25,226 nt of DNA, from contig RFFU01000100.1 in assembly GCA_003697085.1 (NCBI GenBank), positions 1-25,226 of the forward strand. The letters are read 5' to 3'. The position numbers and the translations under genes were made by a program. Below, piece after piece: positions 6,011-25,226 of the stretch. Source of the DNA: Candidatus Hydrogenedentota bacterium. Its GTDB lineage: Bacteria > UBA8481 > J006. The notes under the pieces were generated by a model. The model saw only the letters and a program-made list of their open reading frames with translations, was not told the origin of the DNA and ran no database searches. Every line of letters begins with the position of its first letter. The stretch's first letter is position 1.

Positions 6011-10248
<4,238 letters not shown>

Positions 10249-10373
10249 TTCGTCCCCATCTCTCCTCTCTTTGTTCCCGAGCATTCCGCCGCCCCAGCCC
10301 GCCCCTCGATCACATCGGCCCACGAAATCTATCAGGAATGTCCGCAAAAAAACAGGGGAGAGAGGAAAACTTC

Positions 10374-15950: not shown

Positions 15951-16976
15951 ATGAGTGTCACGATCAGAGAAATCGCTCGTACCCTCGGCCTGTCGGAATC
16001 GACCGTCTCACGCGCGCTGACGGGAAAGGCCACGCTCAAAACCTCGACAATCGAGCGGGTCAAGAAGACCGCAGAGGAGTTGGGTTACGTGCCGAATCTG
16101 ATGGCGCGGGGCTTGGCCGCTCGGCGAAGTGGGATAATTGGAATGGCAGTTCCAACCCTCGAATACCCTCACGGGGAATTTTACTCACGCGTCCTTCACG
16201 GGGTCGAACAGACCGTGACGCGTCTCGGCTATCACCTTCTTTATTTTCCTTACCGAAACGGAACCGCCTCAACGATCCCTTATCAAAGTTTCCTCGATGG
16301 GATCCTCCTTTTCGGCCCTCTCTCCAACGAAGAAACCTCCTCCGCAGTCCTTGAGAAGATCCACATACCCGTCGTCATCCTCGACGATAATCTTCCGGAT
16401 TATCCCAGCGTCTTTTCGCAAAATAGAGAAGGCGCCTCTCTGTTGGCTCGCTATCTCCTCAGTCTCGGCCACAGGCAATTCCTCTTCATCGGAGGCCCGG
16501 AAAATCACCCGACTGTTCAGCAGAGAGAAAAAGGGTTCCGCGAAACTCTCCGGAAGGAATGCTCCGACCCGACCCGAATCGAATCCCTCTATGTCGATTG
16601 GAGGGAGGACCATCACGCCGGACGCCGCGCTATGAGGAAAATACTCCAAAGCGGTTTGGACGAACTGACGGCCGTGGTGGGAGCCAATGATATGCTCGCC
16701 ATCGGGGCTCTTCTCGAGTTGCGGGAAAACGGCATCTCGGTCCCCGACCGTGTTTCCGTCGCGGGTTTTGACGACAGCCTCGCTTGCGAAATCGTTTCCC
16801 CTTCCCTGACCAGCGTCCGTCAGGCAGGAGAAGATATGGGAGAGGTCGCTGTCGAACTCCTTCATAACTTTATAACGGAAGAGATAACGAACTCCCGAGA
16901 AAAAGTATCCACTCAGACACGCTTGATCACGAGACAATCTACGAAGAGACGCTCGCTCGATAATCCCCCCTCATGA
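15951..16976 (+). CDS. LacI-family transcriptional regulator
   Basis: The product is 341 aa from ATG 15951, preceded by a GAGGAG 13 bases away. The N-terminal helix-turn-helix is TIREIARTLGLSESTVSRAL, followed by the hinge region YVPNLMARGLAARRSGIIGM. The hinge helix inserts in the minor groove at a central CG, matching the operators seen nearby. The rest is a periplasmic-binding-protein-like sensor with GHRQFLFIGGPENHPTVQQR, AVVGANDMLAIGALLELREN and VAGFDDSLACEIVSPSLTSV, the usual LacI landmarks. The ligand is unknown. Because the next gene is an exported GH81 glucanase, an oligosaccharide released from beta-1,3-glucan is a reasonable inference. Confidence 0.95.
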   Translation: MSVTIREIARTLGLSESTVSRALTGKATLKTSTIERVKKTAEELGYVPNLMARGLAARRSGIIGMAVPTLEYPHGEFYSRVLHGVEQTVTRLGYHLLYFPYRNGTASTIPYQSFLDGILLFGPLSNEETSSAVLEKIHIPVVILDDNLPDYPSVFSQNREGASLLARYLLSLGHRQFLFIGGPENHPTVQQREKGFRETLRKECSDPTRIESLYVDWREDHHAGRRAMRKILQSGLDELTAVVGANDMLAIGALLELRENGISVPDRVSVAGFDDSLACEIVSPSLTSVRQAGEDMGEVAVELLHNFITEEITNSREKVSTQTRLITRQSTKRRSLDNPPS

Positions 16977-17129: not shown

Positions 17130-20100
17130 ATGCACTCGAACTCTGCTCGGATAACCTCGAAAGAAACGAATCTTCCAACCTTGTCTTTAATCCCTGCCTC
17201 ATCCGGCGACGTTCCTTCTCTCTCCCGTCTCCCTTTTCTTTCCCATTTTTATGCAAGCGTTTTCATATTCTCCGGAAGCGTTCCCCTCCCTTATTCCCTC
17301 TCGAGGAAGCCCCGCGCAACTCCACTCCTTCGCTTCGCCGGCCTTTTTTTCGTCTTCTTCCTTCTCTCCGCCCTTCCGGCCCGAGCGGGAATCGTGCCCG
17401 GTCCCGGCTCATCCTCCTGGGCCGATACGCCGGACCTGAGCGAGTACCCGCTTGTTTTGCTCAACGCCGCCGGTACGGAAGGCGGAGGCCCGGAAATCTA
17501 TGCAACCGCGAATCTTCTCGGCACCGGACGCCCCATTCCAACAAACCGTTGGTATTCCTCCGTCGTCTCACAAAAGTATTCCTTTGCTCACTTCGGATTT
17601 CCTCTCGCCTATCAAGCCACCGCGAAGGGACTGGACATTGACAGTCCGGGATCCGGCATCATTGTCGGTACCGCGGACAATCCCGTCCAGATCGCTTCGT
17701 TCACGGCGGATATGTCGATCATTCCCACTTATGCCAACGGCGACAGTCTTCTTTCAAACGACGCCCGACTGGATACGTTCAGTGACTGGTACATTTCGGT
17801 CGTCTGGAGCGATACACCGCACAACTCCGGAGACACGCTTGTTGCCACGTACGGTCAAGGGAATCCTTATGTCTTTTTCGAGATGGCGGATTCTTTCCAT
17901 CTCACGCTCGATTTCGCCGGGACCGTAAATCTCTACGATTCTTCGGGTGCCGCCGTCCCGGTGGGAAATTCCATTCTCGACGACGCCGCGCGAATCGAAG
18001 CGATCTTTGCTTCCAATGCCCAATACGGCATCTTTCTTCCGCCGGGGTGCACGATCACCCACGTTCGAGGCGCTCCCAATTCTCAGATTCGAATCGATTT
18101 TCCCGCGGACACCGACCACTACTTTTCAGTCGCCGCTCTCCCTTCCGACGCCTTCTTCAATCTCTTTTACAACCACGCTTATGCCTGGCCGACGCAATCC
18201 CAGGTATCCTGGTCCTATAATCCGACGTCGGCGGAGATCACGGCGACCTACCAAGTGACGACAACCCCCCGCCGTTTCGCGCAAGCCACCACTCTGACGG
18301 CGCTTCTGCCTCACCACCAATCGCGCGCCGTCGCTCCGCCCCCCACCCAGGCGACTTACCGCACGATTCGCGGCACCTTGAATCTCGTTGCCGCCAATTC
18401 CTTCACGACCCGAGACAAATTTTACGGGATACTACCGTTTCTTCCGGATTCCGGAACCTACGACACCAATGCGCTCAACAGCCTTCTCGACCAGGATTGG
18501 GCCGACCTCGATGCCATGGCGCAACCGTACGCTATGTACATCGGAGGTCAGATTATGTGCAAAGCCGCCTCGATGATCCCCATCGCCGATCAGATGGGAC
18601 GCGCCGAACTTCGCGACTCCCTTATTGCCCGCGTCAAAACGGAACTCGAAAACTTCTCGACCTACGACGGCGTGGAACAAAAGGGCTACTATTACTACGA
18701 CCAAGAGTACAAGGGATATATCATCTACGATGAAACCTTCGGGAGTTGGGCGTACACCGACCAGCATTTCGGAATAGGGTACCATCTTTACGCCGCCGCC
18801 ATCCTCTCGCTCTACGACACCTCCTTTCTCGCCAACTATGGAGATTTCTACGATCGGGTTATCGATCACCTCTATGAATACCAACGCAACAACAACGAAT
18901 TCCCGTTTATGCGGTTTCTCGATCCTTACGAAGGACACGGCCACGCGCACGGTATGTCCCCCTTCGGCGACGGGAACAACCAGGAATCGACGGGGGAAGC
19001 GATGGCCTCGCTCGGAGCCGCGATTCTCTTCACGACGATTCGAAACAACAACGCGAGCCGGCGGGATGCCCTTCTCTGGGCTTACGTGACTCAAGCCGAG
19101 GCCGCACGGAAATACTGGTTTCACTCGGACGATGACATTTATCTACCCGGCTACGGCAAGGAGATGGCTTCCATTGTTTGGGGGGGCAAGGCCGAATACA
19201 CGACCTTCTTCGGCGGCGCTCCCGAACGCGTCGTCGGAATTCAAGCCACGCCCTTCTTCCCTACGACCCTCCATTTCGCGCGCGACTCCGCGCAGGTAAA
19301 ACTCATCTACAACGAAATGCAGGCCGCTCCCGGCGGTCCTCATCCCAACGAATGGTACGGCACGTTGTGGAAACTGGAGTCCGTCTTCGATCCGGCTCAA
19401 GCCATCGCCGATTTCGACTCCTCCGTTGTGCTCAACGAAGGACAATACCAAAATTACTCCAATATCTTCCATCACATTCACAATTTTCACGCGCTGGGCT
19501 CCATCGCCCCCAATGTAACCTCCGATTTTCCGCTCAGCGCAACCTTCGACAGCCCCGGACGGCGCAGTTACATCGCCTTCAACCCCTATGCGACGGCCAA
19601 GACCGTCACCTTTTACGAAAACGGCTCTCCTCTCGGCTCGATGACCGTTCCTCCTGGAAAGATCCTCGTCGAACATTTTCTTTCTTCCGTTACGGAAACG
19701 CCCGTCATCACCTCCCTCTCCGTCTCGAGCGATACTCCGGACCGATTCTTCGCTCCCGCTCCCCTGGATACCTCGCCCGCGGGAGACACCGTTTGGTTCG
19801 CCGCGGAAACTCAGACCATCACGATCACCGTGTCCGTGAAATCCAACAACGCGGACACGTTGACCGCCTCCGCGGCTTTCGATTCGCCTCCCCAGACAGA
19901 CGGAGCCGTGCCGCTCGAGGCGATCTTCCACCTCAAACCAAGGCACGCTGTCGCCGAAACAATCGTCGTTTTGACCGTGACGGACAGCGGCGGAGCCGGT
20001 GATTCCGTGCTTCTGACCTTTCGCCCCGATACCATCGCCCCCGATACCGTCTCCCTGTTGCAACCCCCTTCCGGCTCCTCGAATCAAATCCTTCCCACTT

Positions 20101-23100
20101 TCGAATGGTCTTCTTCCTCCGATTCCCAAAGCGGCCTCAAAAATTACATTCTCCAGATCTCCGGAAATCCGGGGTTTACCGTCCTCGCCGATTCCGCTTC
20201 TCTCTCCCCGCCGGACACGAATTTCACGCCCTCCGGCCCGCTGGCGGATTCCCTTTGGTTCTGGCGTGTCCTCGCCGTGGACAGCATCGGCAATGTCTCC
20301 TTTTCTCCAACCGATACCTTCATTCTTTCCTCCCCCCCTTCCGGTGTCTGGTACATCAATGATACCTCGAGAGTAGGAGATTCGTTCACCTTCGCTGTCG
20401 GCGCTCCCGACAATGCCGGAACCGCTCCCAACGCTCCCAAGAATTCCCTCGGAAACATTATTCCCCTCCTCAAGGCCGGAGAGACCGTCTATGTCGATGT
20501 AGGAGAAATCAGAGAGACGGCCGTGCTTTCCATCAACACAGGTCCCCTCTGGATCATCGGAGCCGACTCCTTCGCCGCCGACCTCGATTTCGGCGATTCC
20601 TCTTCATCCGGCTCCCTCCAATTCCAAATCCTCGATTCCGGCATTCATCTCTCGAATCTTCGGATCTCCAATGCCTTCACCGGTATCCATATCACCGCCG
20701 TGACGCCGAAGCGCGCTTCCGCATCCCTCGATTCCATCACTCTCCAAAGCCACGGAACCGCCCTTCTCGTCGATACGAATTCCGAAGGCTCTCTTTTTCA
20801 GAATATCGCGATCACCGGTTGCACCACCGGCATTCAAGTCATCACCTCCTCGTTCAATCGCTTCCAAGGGATCATAATCGAAACTCCGGTGGGAGGAGGT
20901 CTCGATTTCGTTTCCTCTGACTCCAACACAGCCCAATCCGTAACCGTCTTTTCCCCCGGAACCTTCGGCCTCGAACTCAATAACTCTGATGGCAATATCA
21001 TCGAATCCACCACCGTCTCGGACGCCGGAGCCCAGGGGTTTCTTGTCACGAACGGATCTGATTCCAACACGCTGCGGACCTCTTCGGCCCTTTCCAATGC
21101 CTCATCCGGATTTCTCATCACTTCCAACTCCGATTCCAACCTTCTCAGTACCAATTTCTCCAGCGGAAACCTCGATGGCTTCGAAATCACCGTCACATCG
21201 TTTTATAATCTCTTTTGGAACAACACCACCTCGGGAAATCTCAACCAGGGCTTCTCCGTCAACTCCTCTTTCAACTTCTTCGATTCGAACACGATCCGAA
21301 ACAGCGGTCAGCAGGGGATCATCTTGTTGGCCGACACAAACACTCTCACGAACAACCTTGTCGAAACGGCGGCACTCCAAGGCATCAATATTCAGTCCCG
21401 AAACAACCTTCTCTCCGGGAATACGATCTTGACGCCGGGGGACGCGGGTTTTCTTGTCCAAGGCACGGGAAATACCCTGGATGGGAACCAGGTTTCGAAT
21501 CCGGCGGCTCAAGGTTATCTCGTTCAAGCCGCTTTCAACGATATCTCAGGAAATACTGTGGTCAATGCGACGGCGCATGGTTTCCAAGTCGTAAGCACCG
21601 GCAACGACACCTTCACCGGAAATCTTGCGACGGGAGGCCTTCTCAGCGGCTTCTTCTTCTTTTCTTCCACGGGCCTCGTCATTGATTCCAACGTGGCCTA
21701 CGGAAACAGCCAGAGCGGTTTCTCCTTTGACGGCGACACGGGGCTCACCGTAACCGGAAACAGCGCGCGAGGAAACGTGCTTCAGGGCTTTTCCTTGACC
21801 AGCGGAAGCAACAATATGCTCCTCCGTGGAAACGCAGCCGAAACGAACGGCTTGGAAGGTTTCAGCCTCGTCGGCGGGGGGAATAACCGGCTCGAGAATA
21901 ACAGGGCGCGGCGGAACGGTTCCCACGGATTTCTCTTGACCAACGCGGACTTCGTCGTCTTTGAGGCAAACGAAGCCGAGTCAAACACCGGCTTCGCCTT
22001 CTTGCTCGATGCGAATTCCGAATCTCCGGTTCTTCATAAGAACAACATCCTGGCGGATACGCTGTGGGTCAGCGTGGACACCGACAACGTCGATATGACG
22101 CGGAACTGGTGGCATACGACGGATTCCAACCTCATCGCTTCCAGAATTCAGGGAAATTCCTCCGCGACCGCGCGCTGGATCCCCTTCCGCCTCGGAAAAG
22201 TAGACACGACCGCGGGTGCGGACACCGTGGCGCCCAAGGCTCCCGATACGGTCGCCGCGGTTCCCGATACCTCCGCCGGTACCATCGTCGTAACGTGGAG
22301 CCTCCCGACCACAAACGAGGAACCGAGTCCTTTTCCCGTGAATGCCTCATTCTTCACCGTCTATCGTTCCTCCTCCTCCGATACCTCCCTTTGGATCGCC
22401 ATCGCTTCCGTCCCCTTTGGAACCAATTCGTTTGCCGATTCCCATCTCATACGGGGTACAACTTACTATTATCGCGTGACCGTTTCCGATACGGGCGATG
22501 CGCGCTATCCGAATGAGAGTTTCTTTTCCGACAGCGAGGCATCCGCCACGGCGCCCAACCCGGTCGTCCGCATTACGGAAGTCCTCGTCCTCTCTTCTCT
22601 TCCTTCCCACTTCACCGCCGGAAACGGCATCGATACAACCGCTGGTTCCGATACCGTCTATTTCAATAACGTCGGCGCGGGGGGAAATCAGCAGGACACG
22701 ATCGTCGTCGCGATGAGCGGAGGTGAGACGTTATCGTTCTCTCAGATTTTCGGAGACGGCCCCCTCGAAGACACGACCGCTCCTTATGAATTTCTCGTCA
22801 TTATCGACCCCGGACTTTCCGATACCGTTCTCACCATCACCGCCGTCGAGACCACCGGAATGACCGCAGACACGTTTTTCCTTTTCTGGGATCGCGATAC
22901 GACCGCACCCGCCGGTGTTACCCTCGATACTCCCGTCGGAGGCACTTTCGTTGGTACTTCGACCGTTCAACTCGTCTGGACCCCACCCACCGACAGCCAG
23001 TCGGGTATCCGAGGCTACGTTGTTGAGGTTTCCGATGTTCCCACGTTTTCGTCTCTGCAGGACAGCGGTTTTCTCTACGCTCCGGACACCGCGTTTCTTG

Positions 23101-25226
23101 TCACGCTTCCGAATGACTCGACGTGGTATTGGAGGGTCATCGCCTATGACTCTGTTTCCAACGCCGATACCGCCGCCGCCCCCAGTGACTCATTCATCCT
23201 GATCACCACCGGTTCCGGAACGTCGCCCGTTATCACCAAAATCGCTATTCTTTCCTCGACCCCCGCTTTTTTCTTCGACGATCCCCCCATTCTCATCACT
23301 TCCCCCCCCGACACCGTTTACTACAATCCCAGCGGAGCCGGCGCTGGACAGACCGATACGATTACGGTTTTCGTCTCGGATGATAACGAGACGGCGGTGA
23401 ACGGAAGCCCGGCCTTCACGGTTCTTCAGGGCGGCGACAGCGGCGTAAACAAGGATTCTTATACGCTCGTGTACCAGATCCCCGCGGCCTCGGCCTCCAG
23501 CCTCATCTCGATCGTCGTCGTGGATACCAGCGGATTCTACGACACGGCCAACGTCTGGTTCCAGGCGGATACGAACTCCCCGACGCTTCCCATCTTGGCC
23601 GCACCGGCGGACTTGACGGAGACGAATCTGGTCACGATCTCATTCTCCTGGGCTTCCTCGTCCGATACGGGCGCGGGGCTCAAGGAATACCTGTTGCAGA
23701 TCGATACGGCGGGAACGTTTGCGAATCCGCTCTTCGATTCCTCGACCTCGACGAACACCTTCGGGACGCTCACTCTTCCCCCAAACGATACCTACTTCTG
23801 GCGCGTCGTCGCTGTTGACAACGTTTCCAACACGGCCCCGTCAGCCGTCCGCATGCTGGTCGTGGACACGACATCGCCGACGCCGCCGACGCTGACCGCT
23901 CCGTCGGACTTGACGGAGACGAACGCCGTGACGATTTCGTTCACGTGGACGGCGGGGGCGGACACGATCGCTGGGGTATCGGGGTATCGCCTGCAGGTGG
24001 ATACGGCGGGGACGTTTGCGAATCCGCTCTTCGATTCCTCGACCTCGACGAACACCTTCGGGACGCTGACGCTTCCGGCGAACGACACGTATTCCTGGCG
24101 GGTCTTGACGGCAGACGATGCCTCGAACACCTCGGTGACCGCGGCGCGTGTGTTGGTTGTCGATACCCTGCCGCCGACGATTCCCGGCATCGTTTCGCCG
24201 ACGGGAGGAACGACGGTGATAGCGATGCCGATGACCTTCGACTGGAACGCCGCGGCGGACTCCTTGAGCGGTGTGGCGGGTTATCGTTTGCAGGTGGATA
24301 CGTCGGGAACGTTCACGGGACCGCTGACGGTCGATTCGACGCAGGCGGTTCCGGACACGACGGCGACGCTCGGGTTGGATACCTACTTCTGGCGCGTGAT
24401 CGTCGTCGATGCGACCGGCAATACAACCGCCTCGACGACGGAGAGTTTCGTGGTGTCGGCAGCGGCGGAGACGGTGCCGCCGGAGACCTTCACGCTGACG
24501 AACCCGGTGGATCAGACCGAGACGAACGAGGTGGTGATCGCGTTCCGGTGGACGGATGCCTTCGATTCGACGCCGCCGGTGACGTATCGCTTGATTGTCG
24601 ATACGGATATGGCGGGGAACTATGTCGTGGACACGACGGTGCCGGACACGGTGGAGTTCGTAACGGTGCCCGCGAACGACACGTATTTGTGGCGTGTGAT
24701 CGCCATCGACAACGGCGGCAACACGACGCAGGTGGGCGACTCGATCTTCCTCGTCGATACCCTGCCGCCGACGATTCCGGCCTTGAACGCTCCGGCGGGA
24801 GGTGTGTCGCTTCCGTCGCCGATCTTCCTCGACTGGAGCGCCGCGGCCGACTCCTTGAGCGGTGTGGCGTCCTATCGGCTTCAGTTGGACGGAACGGGCA
24901 CCTTTGCGGGGGTCCTTGCGGTCGATTCGGTTGTGAACACGCCCGATACAACCCTCTCCCTGGCCGACGACACCTACTTCTGGCGTGTGATTGCAATCGA
25001 TGTCACCGGAAACACGACCGTTTCGGCCACGGATAGTTTCGTGGTGGCGGGGCTGGATACGACACCGCCGGTCTTCGGTGCAACGCCATCCGCAACACCG
25101 TCCTCCGTGACAAACACGGGAACGACGCCGGTCGTGATTACCGTGACGGTGTCGGACAGCGGAACGGTGGACACGGTGGTGATCAATCTCCTCCCGGTGG
25201 GCGGGGCGGAATCGACGCCGTTCACC
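17130..25226 (+). CDS. Giant exported GH81 endo-beta-1,3-glucanase with beta-helix and Ig/FN3-like repeats (3' end outside window)
   Basis: One uninterrupted frame runs from ATG 17130 to the window edge (2,699 codons so far). A signal peptide, RFAGLFFVFFLLSALPARA, ends at about 17387. The GH81 domain (about 17388-19690) shows PIPTNRWYSSVV, FGFPLAYQAT, DQHFGIGYHLYAAA (18759) and GDGNNQESTGEA (18972), whose Asp and two Glu align with the conserved acidic residues of the family; it should cleave beta-1,3-glucan internally. An Ig-like segment follows, then a NosD-like right-handed beta-helix with Gly/Asn-rich turns (about 20345-22200), one FN3-like domain, two less clear Ig-like regions, and a roughly 99-residue repeat array from 23583. 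The true start is unclear: ATG 17130 gives an unusually long n-region, while ATG 17251 is out of frame. The operator at 17249 lies inside the open frame. Fate of the C-terminus is unknown. Confidence 0.88.
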   Translation, partial: MHSNSARITSKETNLPTLSLIPASSGDVPSLSRLPFLSHFYASVFIFSGSVPLPYSLSRKPRATPLLRFAGLFFVFFLLSALPARAGIVPGPGSSSWADTPDLSEYPLVLLNAAGTEGGGPEIYATANLLGTGRPIPTNRWYSSVVSQKYSFAHFGFPLAYQATAKGLDIDSPGSGIIVGTADNPVQIASFTADMSIIPTYANGDSLLSNDARLDTFSDWYISVVWSDTPHNSGDTLVATYGQGNPYVFFEMADSFHLTLDFAGTVNLYDSSGAAVPVGNSILDDAARIEAIFASNAQYGIFLPPGCTITHVRGAPNSQIRIDFPADTDHYFSVAALPSDAFFNLFYNHAYAWPTQSQVSWSYNPTSAEITATYQVTTTPRRFAQATTLTALLPHHQSRAVAPPPTQATYRTIRGTLNLVAANSFTTRDKFYGILPFLPDSGTYDTNALNSLLDQDWADLDAMAQPYAMYIGGQIMCKAASMIPIADQMGRAELRDSLIARVKTELENFSTYDGVEQKGYYYYDQEYKGYIIYDETFGSWAYTDQHFGIGYHLYAAAILSLYDTSFLANYGDFYDRVIDHLYEYQRNNNEFPFMRFLDPYEGHGHAHGMSPFGDGNNQESTGEAMASLGAAILFTTIRNNNASRRDALLWAYVTQAEAARKYWFHSDDDIYLPGYGKEMASIVWGGKAEYTTFFGGAPERVVGIQATPFFPTTLHFARDSAQVKLIYNEMQAAPGGPHPNEWYGTLWKLESVFDPAQAIADFDSSVVLNEGQYQNYSNIFHHIHNFHALGSIAPNVTSDFPLSATFDSPGRRSYIAFNPYATAKTVTFYENGSPLGSMTVPPGKILVEHFLSSVTETPVITSLSVSSDTPDRFFAPAPLDTSPAGDTVWFAAETQTITITVSVKSNNADTLTASAAFDSPPQTDGAVPLEAIFHLKPRHAVAETIVVLTVTDSGGAGDSVLLTFRPDTIAPDTVSLLQPPSGSSNQILPTFEWSSSSDSQSGLKNYILQISGNPGFTVLADSASLSPPDTNFTPSGPLADSLWFWRVLAVDSIGNVSFSPTDTFILSSPPSGVWYINDTSRVGDSFTFAVGAPDNAGTAPNAPKNSLGNIIPLLKAGETVYVDVGEIRETAVLSINTGPLWIIGADSFAADLDFGDSSSSGSLQFQILDSGIHLSNLRISNAFTGIHITAVTPKRASASLDSITLQSHGTALLVDTNSEGSLFQNIAITGCTTGIQVITSSFNRFQGIIIETPVGGGLDFVSSDSNTAQSVTVFSPGTFGLELNNSDGNIIESTTVSDAGAQGFLVTNGSDSNTLRTSSALSNASSGFLITSNSDSNLLSTNFSSGNLDGFEITVTSFYNLFWNNTTSGNLNQGFSVNSSFNFFDSNTIRNSGQQGIILLADTNTLTNNLVETAALQGINIQSRNNLLSGNTILTPGDAGFLVQGTGNTLDGNQVSNPAAQGYLVQAAFNDISGNTVVNATAHGFQVVSTGNDTFTGNLATGGLLSGFFFFSSTGLVIDSNVAYGNSQSGFSFDGDTGLTVTGNSARGNVLQGFSLTSGSNNMLLRGNAAETNGLEGFSLVGGGNNRLENNRARRNGSHGFLLTNADFVVFEANEAESNTGFAFLLDANSESPVLHKNNILADTLWVSVDTDNVDMTRNWWHTTDSNLIASRIQGNSSATARWIPFRLGKVDTTAGADTVAPKAPDTVAAVPDTSAGTIVVTWSLPTTNEEPSPFPVNASFFTVYRSSSSDTSLWIAIASVPFGTNSFADSHLIRGTTYYYRVTVSDTGDARYPNESFFSDSEASATAPNPVVRITEVLVLSSLPSHFTAGNGIDTTAGSDTVYFNNVGAGGNQQDTIVVAMSGGETLSFSQIFGDGPLEDTTAPYEFLVIIDPGLSDTVLTITAVETTGMTADTFFLFWDRDTTAPAGVTLDTPVGGTFVGTSTVQLVWTPPTDSQSGIRGYVVEVSDVPTFSSLQDSGFLYAPDTAFLVTLPNDSTWYWRVIAYDSVSNADTAAAPSDSFILITTGSGTSPVITKIAILSSTPAFFFDDPPILITSPPDTVYYNPSGAGAGQTDTITVFVSDDNETAVNGSPAFTVLQGGDSGVNKDSYTLVYQIPAASASSLISIVVVDTSGFYDTANVWFQADTNSPTLPILAAPADLTETNLVTISFSWASSSDTGAGLKEYLLQIDTAGTFANPLFDSSTSTNTFGTLTLPPNDTYFWRVVAVDNVSNTAPSAVRMLVVDTTSPTPPTLTAPSDLTETNAVTISFTWTAGADTIAGVSGYRLQVDTAGTFANPLFDSSTSTNTFGTLTLPANDTYSWRVLTADDASNTSVTAARVLVVDTLPPTIPGIVSPTGGTTVIAMPMTFDWNAAADSLSGVAGYRLQVDTSGTFTGPLTVDSTQAVPDTTATLGLDTYFWRVIVVDATGNTTASTTESFVVSAAAETVPPETFTLTNPVDQTETNEVVIAFRWTDAFDSTPPVTYRLIVDTDMAGNYVVDTTVPDTVEFVTVPANDTYLWRVIAIDNGGNTTQVGDSIFLVDTLPPTIPALNAPAGGVSLPSPIFLDWSAAADSLSGVASYRLQLDGTGTFAGVLAVDSVVNTPDTTLSLADDTYFWRVIAIDVTGNTTVSATDSFVVAGLDTTPPVFGATPSATPSSVTNTGTTPVVITVTVSDSGTVDTVVINLLPVGGAESTPFT
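17249..17265 (+). promoter_or_regulatory. LacI-family operator, copy 2 (glucanase gene)
   Basis: TTATGCAAGCGTTTTCA shares its first 14 bases exactly with the site at 15897. It is a slightly better imperfect palindrome (TGCAAGC / GTTTTCA around the central CG). It lies 120 bases downstream of the in-frame ATG at 17130 and about 135 bases before the end of the signal peptide. Translation probably starts downstream of it, or repression is by roadblock. I saw no convincing -35/-10 pair directly upstream. Confidence 0.55.
23715..23770 (+). repeat. 56-bp perfect direct repeat, copy A
   Basis: The 56 bases at 23715-23770 are identical to those at 24012-24067. The offset is exactly 297 bases (99 codons), so the copies sit at the same place in adjacent Ig-like units. 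Both encode the segment TFANPLFDSSTSTNTFGTL. Confidence 0.9.
24012..24067 (+). repeat. 56-bp perfect direct repeat, copy B
   Basis: Second copy of the 56-base direct repeat that begins at 23715. Sequence identity falls on both sides of the block, which suggests recent duplication or gene conversion between repeat units. Confidence 0.9.

Follow-up and report, generated by a model that had tools for sequence, protein, structure and literature searches.

The window analysed here, 25,226 nucleotides in length, is the entire contig C136 of genome G000, a MAG-like assembly of 3.2 Mb in 145 contigs that is 94.6% complete; one of its relatives belongs to the same order and all others share the same domain with it, which marks its phylum as thinly sampled. 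Positions 17130..25226 of the forward strand, on which all features of the gene described below lie, encode a giant multidomain protein (P0001) in a single frame of 2,699 codons, which begins at an ATG, contains no stop codon up to the contig end at 25226 and is therefore missing its 3' part, estimated at ~420 aa by comparison with a sibling protein of the same genome (L018). A probable Sec signal peptide, SRKPRATPLLRFAGLFFVFFLLSALPARA, read from the sequence with the start codons checked, occupies aa ~57-86 (17298..17387). The leader is oddly long, as this signal-like hydrophobic segment begins ~56 residues past the only ATG (17130) and the only nearer start codon is a TTG at 17181; the true N-terminus may thus differ from this ATG, or the leader may be an extended one. 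Directly upstream on the same strand is a gene for a LacI-family regulator (15951..16976), which could possibly act as a sugar-responsive regulator of the P0001 gene. Elsewhere in the window, an Omp85/BamA-type protein (7015-10347, reverse strand) exhibits an unusual N-terminal extension, with Big_1 Ig-like domains ahead of its POTRA region. The window yielded no plasmid match, and a plasmid origin was rejected.

The head of P0001 is a GH81 domain (aa 108-847; 17451..19670), recognized by Pfam, by phmmer against the PDB and by structure modeling. Glyco_hydro81C matches aa 450-765 (E 2.3e-43), the GH81 N-terminal domain scores above its cut-off (29.7 bits) and the CtLam81A structure 6fop is matched by aa 115-831 (E 3.5e-99). 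For the head, AlphaFold modeling that included 24 GH81 relatives from named genomes gave a pLDDT of 85.6, and the model compares with CtLam81A 6fop at TM 0.87 (E 1.5e-55) and with BhGH81 at TM 0.86. Membership in the family is evident from homology over the full-length N- and C-domains, from the fold and from the presence of the conserved acidic residues D544, E619 and E623. D544 lies within TDQHF (codon 18759..18761), while E619 and E623 lie within NNQESTGEA (18984..18998), and all three are invariant in the 25 aligned GH81 domains. In CtLam81A, the position that aligns with E619 is the one mutated in the E515A variant 6fop. We take D544, E619 and E623 to be the catalytic acids of GH81. Based upon the homology, the fold and these invariant residues, there is a strong expectation that the head is an endo-beta-1,3-glucanase, its substrate and function being predicted by family membership. 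In fold, full domain length and conserved D/E motifs, the head resembles both CtLam81A (6fop) and BH0236/BhGH81 (5t49 and others), whereas those enzymes carry at most CBM-type accessory modules and lack both the beta-helix and the giant Ig stalk (PMC9609564; relatives scanned). In a tree of 97 distinct GH81 domains, P0001 included, its branch meets Elusimicrobiota-type GH81s at an open fork with support 82, and at 2.37 this branch is too long to support any argument on the origin or transfer of the domain.

Behind the head, an Ig-like pair, A1-B1 (aa 852-1070; 19683..20339), leads into a right-handed parallel beta-helix of about 615 residues (Beta_helix/NosD/TIGR03804; aa 1075-1690; 20352..22199). 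Its repeat pattern is present and the Pfam matches are strong (Beta_helix E 1.1e-33, with the best stretch at aa 1418-1569; NosD E 8.4e-28), the two profiles scoring 116.6 and 97.7 bits against cut-offs of 25.9 and 23.6. An AlphaFold model of the helix made from the single sequence without an alignment reached a pLDDT of 43, which is too low for surface inspection. The PHROGs search returned no match, and a phage tailspike-like beta-helix was rejected. An FN3-like domain follows (aa 1700-1812; 22227..22565), then Ig-like A2-B2-A3 units delimited by sequence pattern (aa 1813-2145; 22566..23564), five Ig/FN3-like B repeats of ~99 aa each (aa 2146-2640; 23565..25049) and the start of a Big_13-like domain (25050..25226), which is cut by the contig end and corresponds to L018 up to aa ~1604. 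Pfam matches of Ig type lie within aa 1700-2699. Two neighboring Ig repeats share an exact DNA repeat of >35 bases at 23715 and 24012 (297 bases apart), reflecting either a recent duplication or an unsure repeat number in the assembly at this position. The coordinates and domain calls of an earlier note on this DNA, which had placed a GH81 region, a NosD-like beta-helix and Ig/FN3 domains in one frame, are thus borne out by Pfam, PDB and model comparisons.

The same modules recur in other giant proteins. One of these siblings, L018 (4078-10143, reverse strand), has a TIM-barrel head that resembles GH2 and, weakly, GH158; its stalk is of the same kind as that of P0001, and it carries a Por_Secre_tail. 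Its Ig pair (aa 645-864, 46% identical to that of P0001) passes directly into a B-repeat stalk (aa 858-1360, 49% identical to P0001 aa 2144-2647), and the two are likewise contiguous in L021 of genome G001. In P0001, about 1,075 residues, the whole beta-helix-FN3 block included, lie between the Ig pair and the B-repeat stalk, although the exact borders of the interposed block are uncertain owing to the repeats. Judged by these alignments, the simplest reading would be a module insertion into a common scaffold in P0001, while a loss in L018 and L021 is also possible. The beta-helix is similarly found in other contexts. L019, on contig C140 of G000, carries no GH81 domain, but encodes two beta-helix-FN3 units 33-39% identical to that of P0001, with the FN3-like domain again following the helix, plus the stalk. 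In G030, a distantly related genome, NosD matches number 173, and among the matches listed, most fall in frames >2,000 aa; GH81 was not found in G030, nor in the 3 genomes of its phylum in a search run without a positive control. Since the beta-helix module recurs in giants devoid of GH81, both in L019 and in G030, it travels independently of glucanases. Like P0001, the giants L019 of G000 and L028, L029 and L031 of G030 combine a NosD/Beta_helix-type helix with FN3/Ig repeats; unlike P0001, they lack GH81, in place of which some contain FG-GAP or PKD domains. The end of L031 is of the CHU_C type, and L029 (G030:C6:160000-179900) belongs to an open frame of 9,114 aa in which NosD-type beta-helices and Ig-like repeats are numerous. 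Directly after two of the G030 beta-helix giants, there are genes for an outer-membrane barrel of the Alginate_exp type (PF13372) rather than PorV (L028:2732-4177, reverse strand; L031:11257-13068, forward strand).

Among GH81 proteins, the arrangement appears to be rare, as the earlier note had supposed in calling the architecture unfamiliar. The named genome collection holds at least 592 GH81 loci, and with the best 80 of these plus about 20 from whole-genome and viral searches, a profile built in this analysis detected a beta-helix beside GH81 in 0 of the 96 other distinct GH81 domains, a sample that is Streptomyces-heavy, similarity-ranked and contains some frames cut by contig ends, such that rare cases may exist elsewhere. 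The longest other GH81 frame in this sample is 1,600 aa, and in whole-genome surveys of 386, 5 and 80 genomes it is 1,336 aa. Eight of the longer relatives scanned with Pfam carry CBM6, malectin, PKD, Big, FN3 or sorting domains, several of them CBM6 or malectin, which agrees with the earlier statement that GH81 enzymes are normally paired with CBMs. No paper describing a fusion of GH81 to a beta-helix was found in the part of the literature covered. Close parallels in overall build are multimodular type IX-secreted CAZymes of Bacteroidota, such as those of 'Ca. Paraporphyromonas polyenzymogenes' (PMC5831590) and the Lutibacter protein L091, a 1,600-aa GH81-CBM6-PKD-Big-FN3-sorting-domain protein. 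P0001 shares with these a GH head and Ig/FN3 linkers, together with a sorting domain that is seen in L091 and is probable in P0001, but it differs in its lineage, its much longer stalk, its beta-helix block and its lineage-specific Ig modules. By sequence comparison, P0001 is composed of known parts in an arrangement not found elsewhere in the GH81 sample examined.

By analogy with its siblings, the C-terminus of P0001, which lies beyond the contig end, probably forms a sorting domain of the type IX-like kind. In G000, the stalk siblings end in Por_Secre_tail/CHU_C/FlgD-like sorting domains, and L018 continues for ~420 aa past aa ~1604, its sorting domain included (Por_Secre_tail, 2.4e-6). Fifteen G000 sites match the L018 C-terminal region, the short match of the window itself being left out, and GH81 relatives of other lineages (L036, L040, L091 and L110) have such tails too. 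Among type IX parts, G000 has 16 PorV-family matches, and a 2,100-aa frame on C50 encodes a protein distantly resembling SprA, with scores of 74 and 61 bits that stay below the curated cut-off. PorU (peptidase C25) had no match in G000, in the same search that finds it in G026, and GldM/PorM had none in a search that lacked a working control. In G000, G001 and G030 taken together, the L018 C-terminal region has 56 matching sites, and at 30 of them a PorV-family gene comes next on the same strand, at a distance of 68-272 bp (10/15, 9/14 and 11/27, respectively; binomial p under 1e-21 in each genome). Examples of the pairing lie at G000:C96:5540-7848, G000:C130:8641-11052 and G000:C92:9385-11066, while L018, the closest sibling of P0001, has no adjacent PorV. 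Bacteroidota use PorV as the general carrier for type A cargo, and their cargo-specific carriers are PorP/SprF, clustered with type B cargo genes (PMC10994853; PMC9143113; PMC10202324). The gene pairing described here, in genomes that gave no PorU match, suggests one PorV-type carrier per cargo. It has also been proposed that cognate PorV-like barrels may shield a sorting domain from cleavage (PMC10202324), and the occurrence of PorV beside many giants in G000, where PorU was not detected, would fit this idea. No paper on gene-paired PorV copies was found in the literature covered, which was partial.

Several alternative explanations for P0001 merit consideration. The most trivial of these is that a GH81 gene was wrongly joined to a beta-helix/stalk gene during assembly, as could be suspected of a MAG-like assembly in 145 contigs with several paralogous stalk genes. 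Third-position GC is steady at 0.65-0.70 throughout 19530 to 21030, which spans the GH81/beta-helix junction, and for this reason 19690-20345, where the earlier note had envisaged a possible stop codon or frameshift, reads as one coding frame with no interruption. P0001 and the sibling giant genes compared with it have zero 20-mers in common, and together with the steady GC this makes a frameshift or a paralogue-mediated assembly join unlikely. Composition is also continuous over the junction, and the Ig pair behind the GH81 head is the same pair that stands behind the GH2-like head of L018. An assembly chimera is accordingly very improbable and was rejected. A further alternative concerns the beta-helix, which could be carbohydrate-active in its own right, as a lyase, epimerase or hydrolase that works with GH81 on a mixed polysaccharide. 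The right-handed beta-helix is the fold of many polysaccharide lyases, mannuronan epimerases and GH55, and the best PDB sequence matches of the P0001 helix are mannuronan C5-epimerases. These matches are, however, weak and repeat-driven (E 2.2e-5 to 1e-3); AlgG and AlgE share with the helix the right-handed fold and this weak similarity, whereas their catalytic DPHD motif is absent from the P0001 sequence, which has FFF-S where the DPHD of AlgG aligns. An epimerase was therefore rejected. The helix is also poor in Lys, Arg and His (0.8%, 2.9% and 1.1%, respectively), and as a general NosD/Beta_helix kind, it occurs in two or many copies per protein in giants without GH81. For these reasons, the "two-site glucan machine" of the earlier note is not supported, and we regard a second active site working with GH81 as improbable.

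Somewhat more credible, yet still unlikely in our estimation, is that the beta-helix and Ig modules constitute a true glucan-binding device, replacing a CBM and targeting the enzyme to insoluble glucan. CBM6, CBM56 or malectin modules are common on GH81 enzymes (relatives scanned; PMC9609564), Pfam recognized no CBM in P0001, and the beta-helix fold presents an extended flat face. On the other hand, the same beta-helix-FN3 units are present in the glucanase-free L019 and L028, such that a specificity for beta-1,3-glucan is not indicated. It is also conceivable that P0001 is secreted and released rather than held on the surface, as some type IX cargo is freed once its sorting domain has been removed (PMC10202324). 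We consider this rather doubtful, given that no PorU-type peptidase (C25) was found in G000, that PorV carriers are paired with many of the siblings and that a long stalk is most sensible when tethered. Counting against a surface-held protein is the location of both the P0001 C-terminus and the downstream gene outside of the assembly. Surface display, the part of the earlier note's proposal that stands, is nonetheless a reasonable inference by analogy with the siblings, which end in sorting domains.

The reading that we favor, and hold to be rather probable, is that P0001 is an endo-beta-1,3-glucanase that is exported to the cell surface and built on the giant-stalk scaffold of its own genome, with the beta-helix as a spacer instead of a second site. 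A full-length GH81 domain and the Ig, beta-helix, FN3 and Ig-repeat modules follow one another in one frame, and sibling giants contain these modules too. P0001 would cross the inner membrane by Sec and the outer membrane by a type IX-like route, directed by a sorting domain at the C-terminus that would have been lost at the contig end; thereafter, a PorV-family outer-membrane carrier may keep it on the surface. The stalk and the rigid beta-helix rod would hold the GH81 head well off the cell, where it could cut beta-1,3-glucan, be it laminarin, curdlan or fungal or algal wall. The helix itself is probably a rigid spacer, perhaps with a weak glycan-binding surface; there is no indication of a second catalytic site, although one is possible. 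Extending this to the other giants, we tentatively suggest, at less than even confidence, that the beta-helix cassette is a plug-in module for length and glycan contact that has moved between surface giants with different heads, that each giant has a PorV-family carrier of its own, which exports and holds it with no cleavage by PorU, and that PorV would thereby take the place of the PorP/SprF pairs of Bacteroidota.

In the uncultured lineage that encodes P0001, very long surface enzymes appear to arise through the transfer of whole modules, namely the head, the beta-helix rod and the Ig stalk, between genes of one genome. The build of P0001 yields testable predictions regarding reach, glucan binding and surface anchoring. 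Furthermore, the PorV-per-cargo pairing bears upon the type IX question of how carriers select what they carry and whether, where no sortase is present, a carrier could itself act as the anchor.
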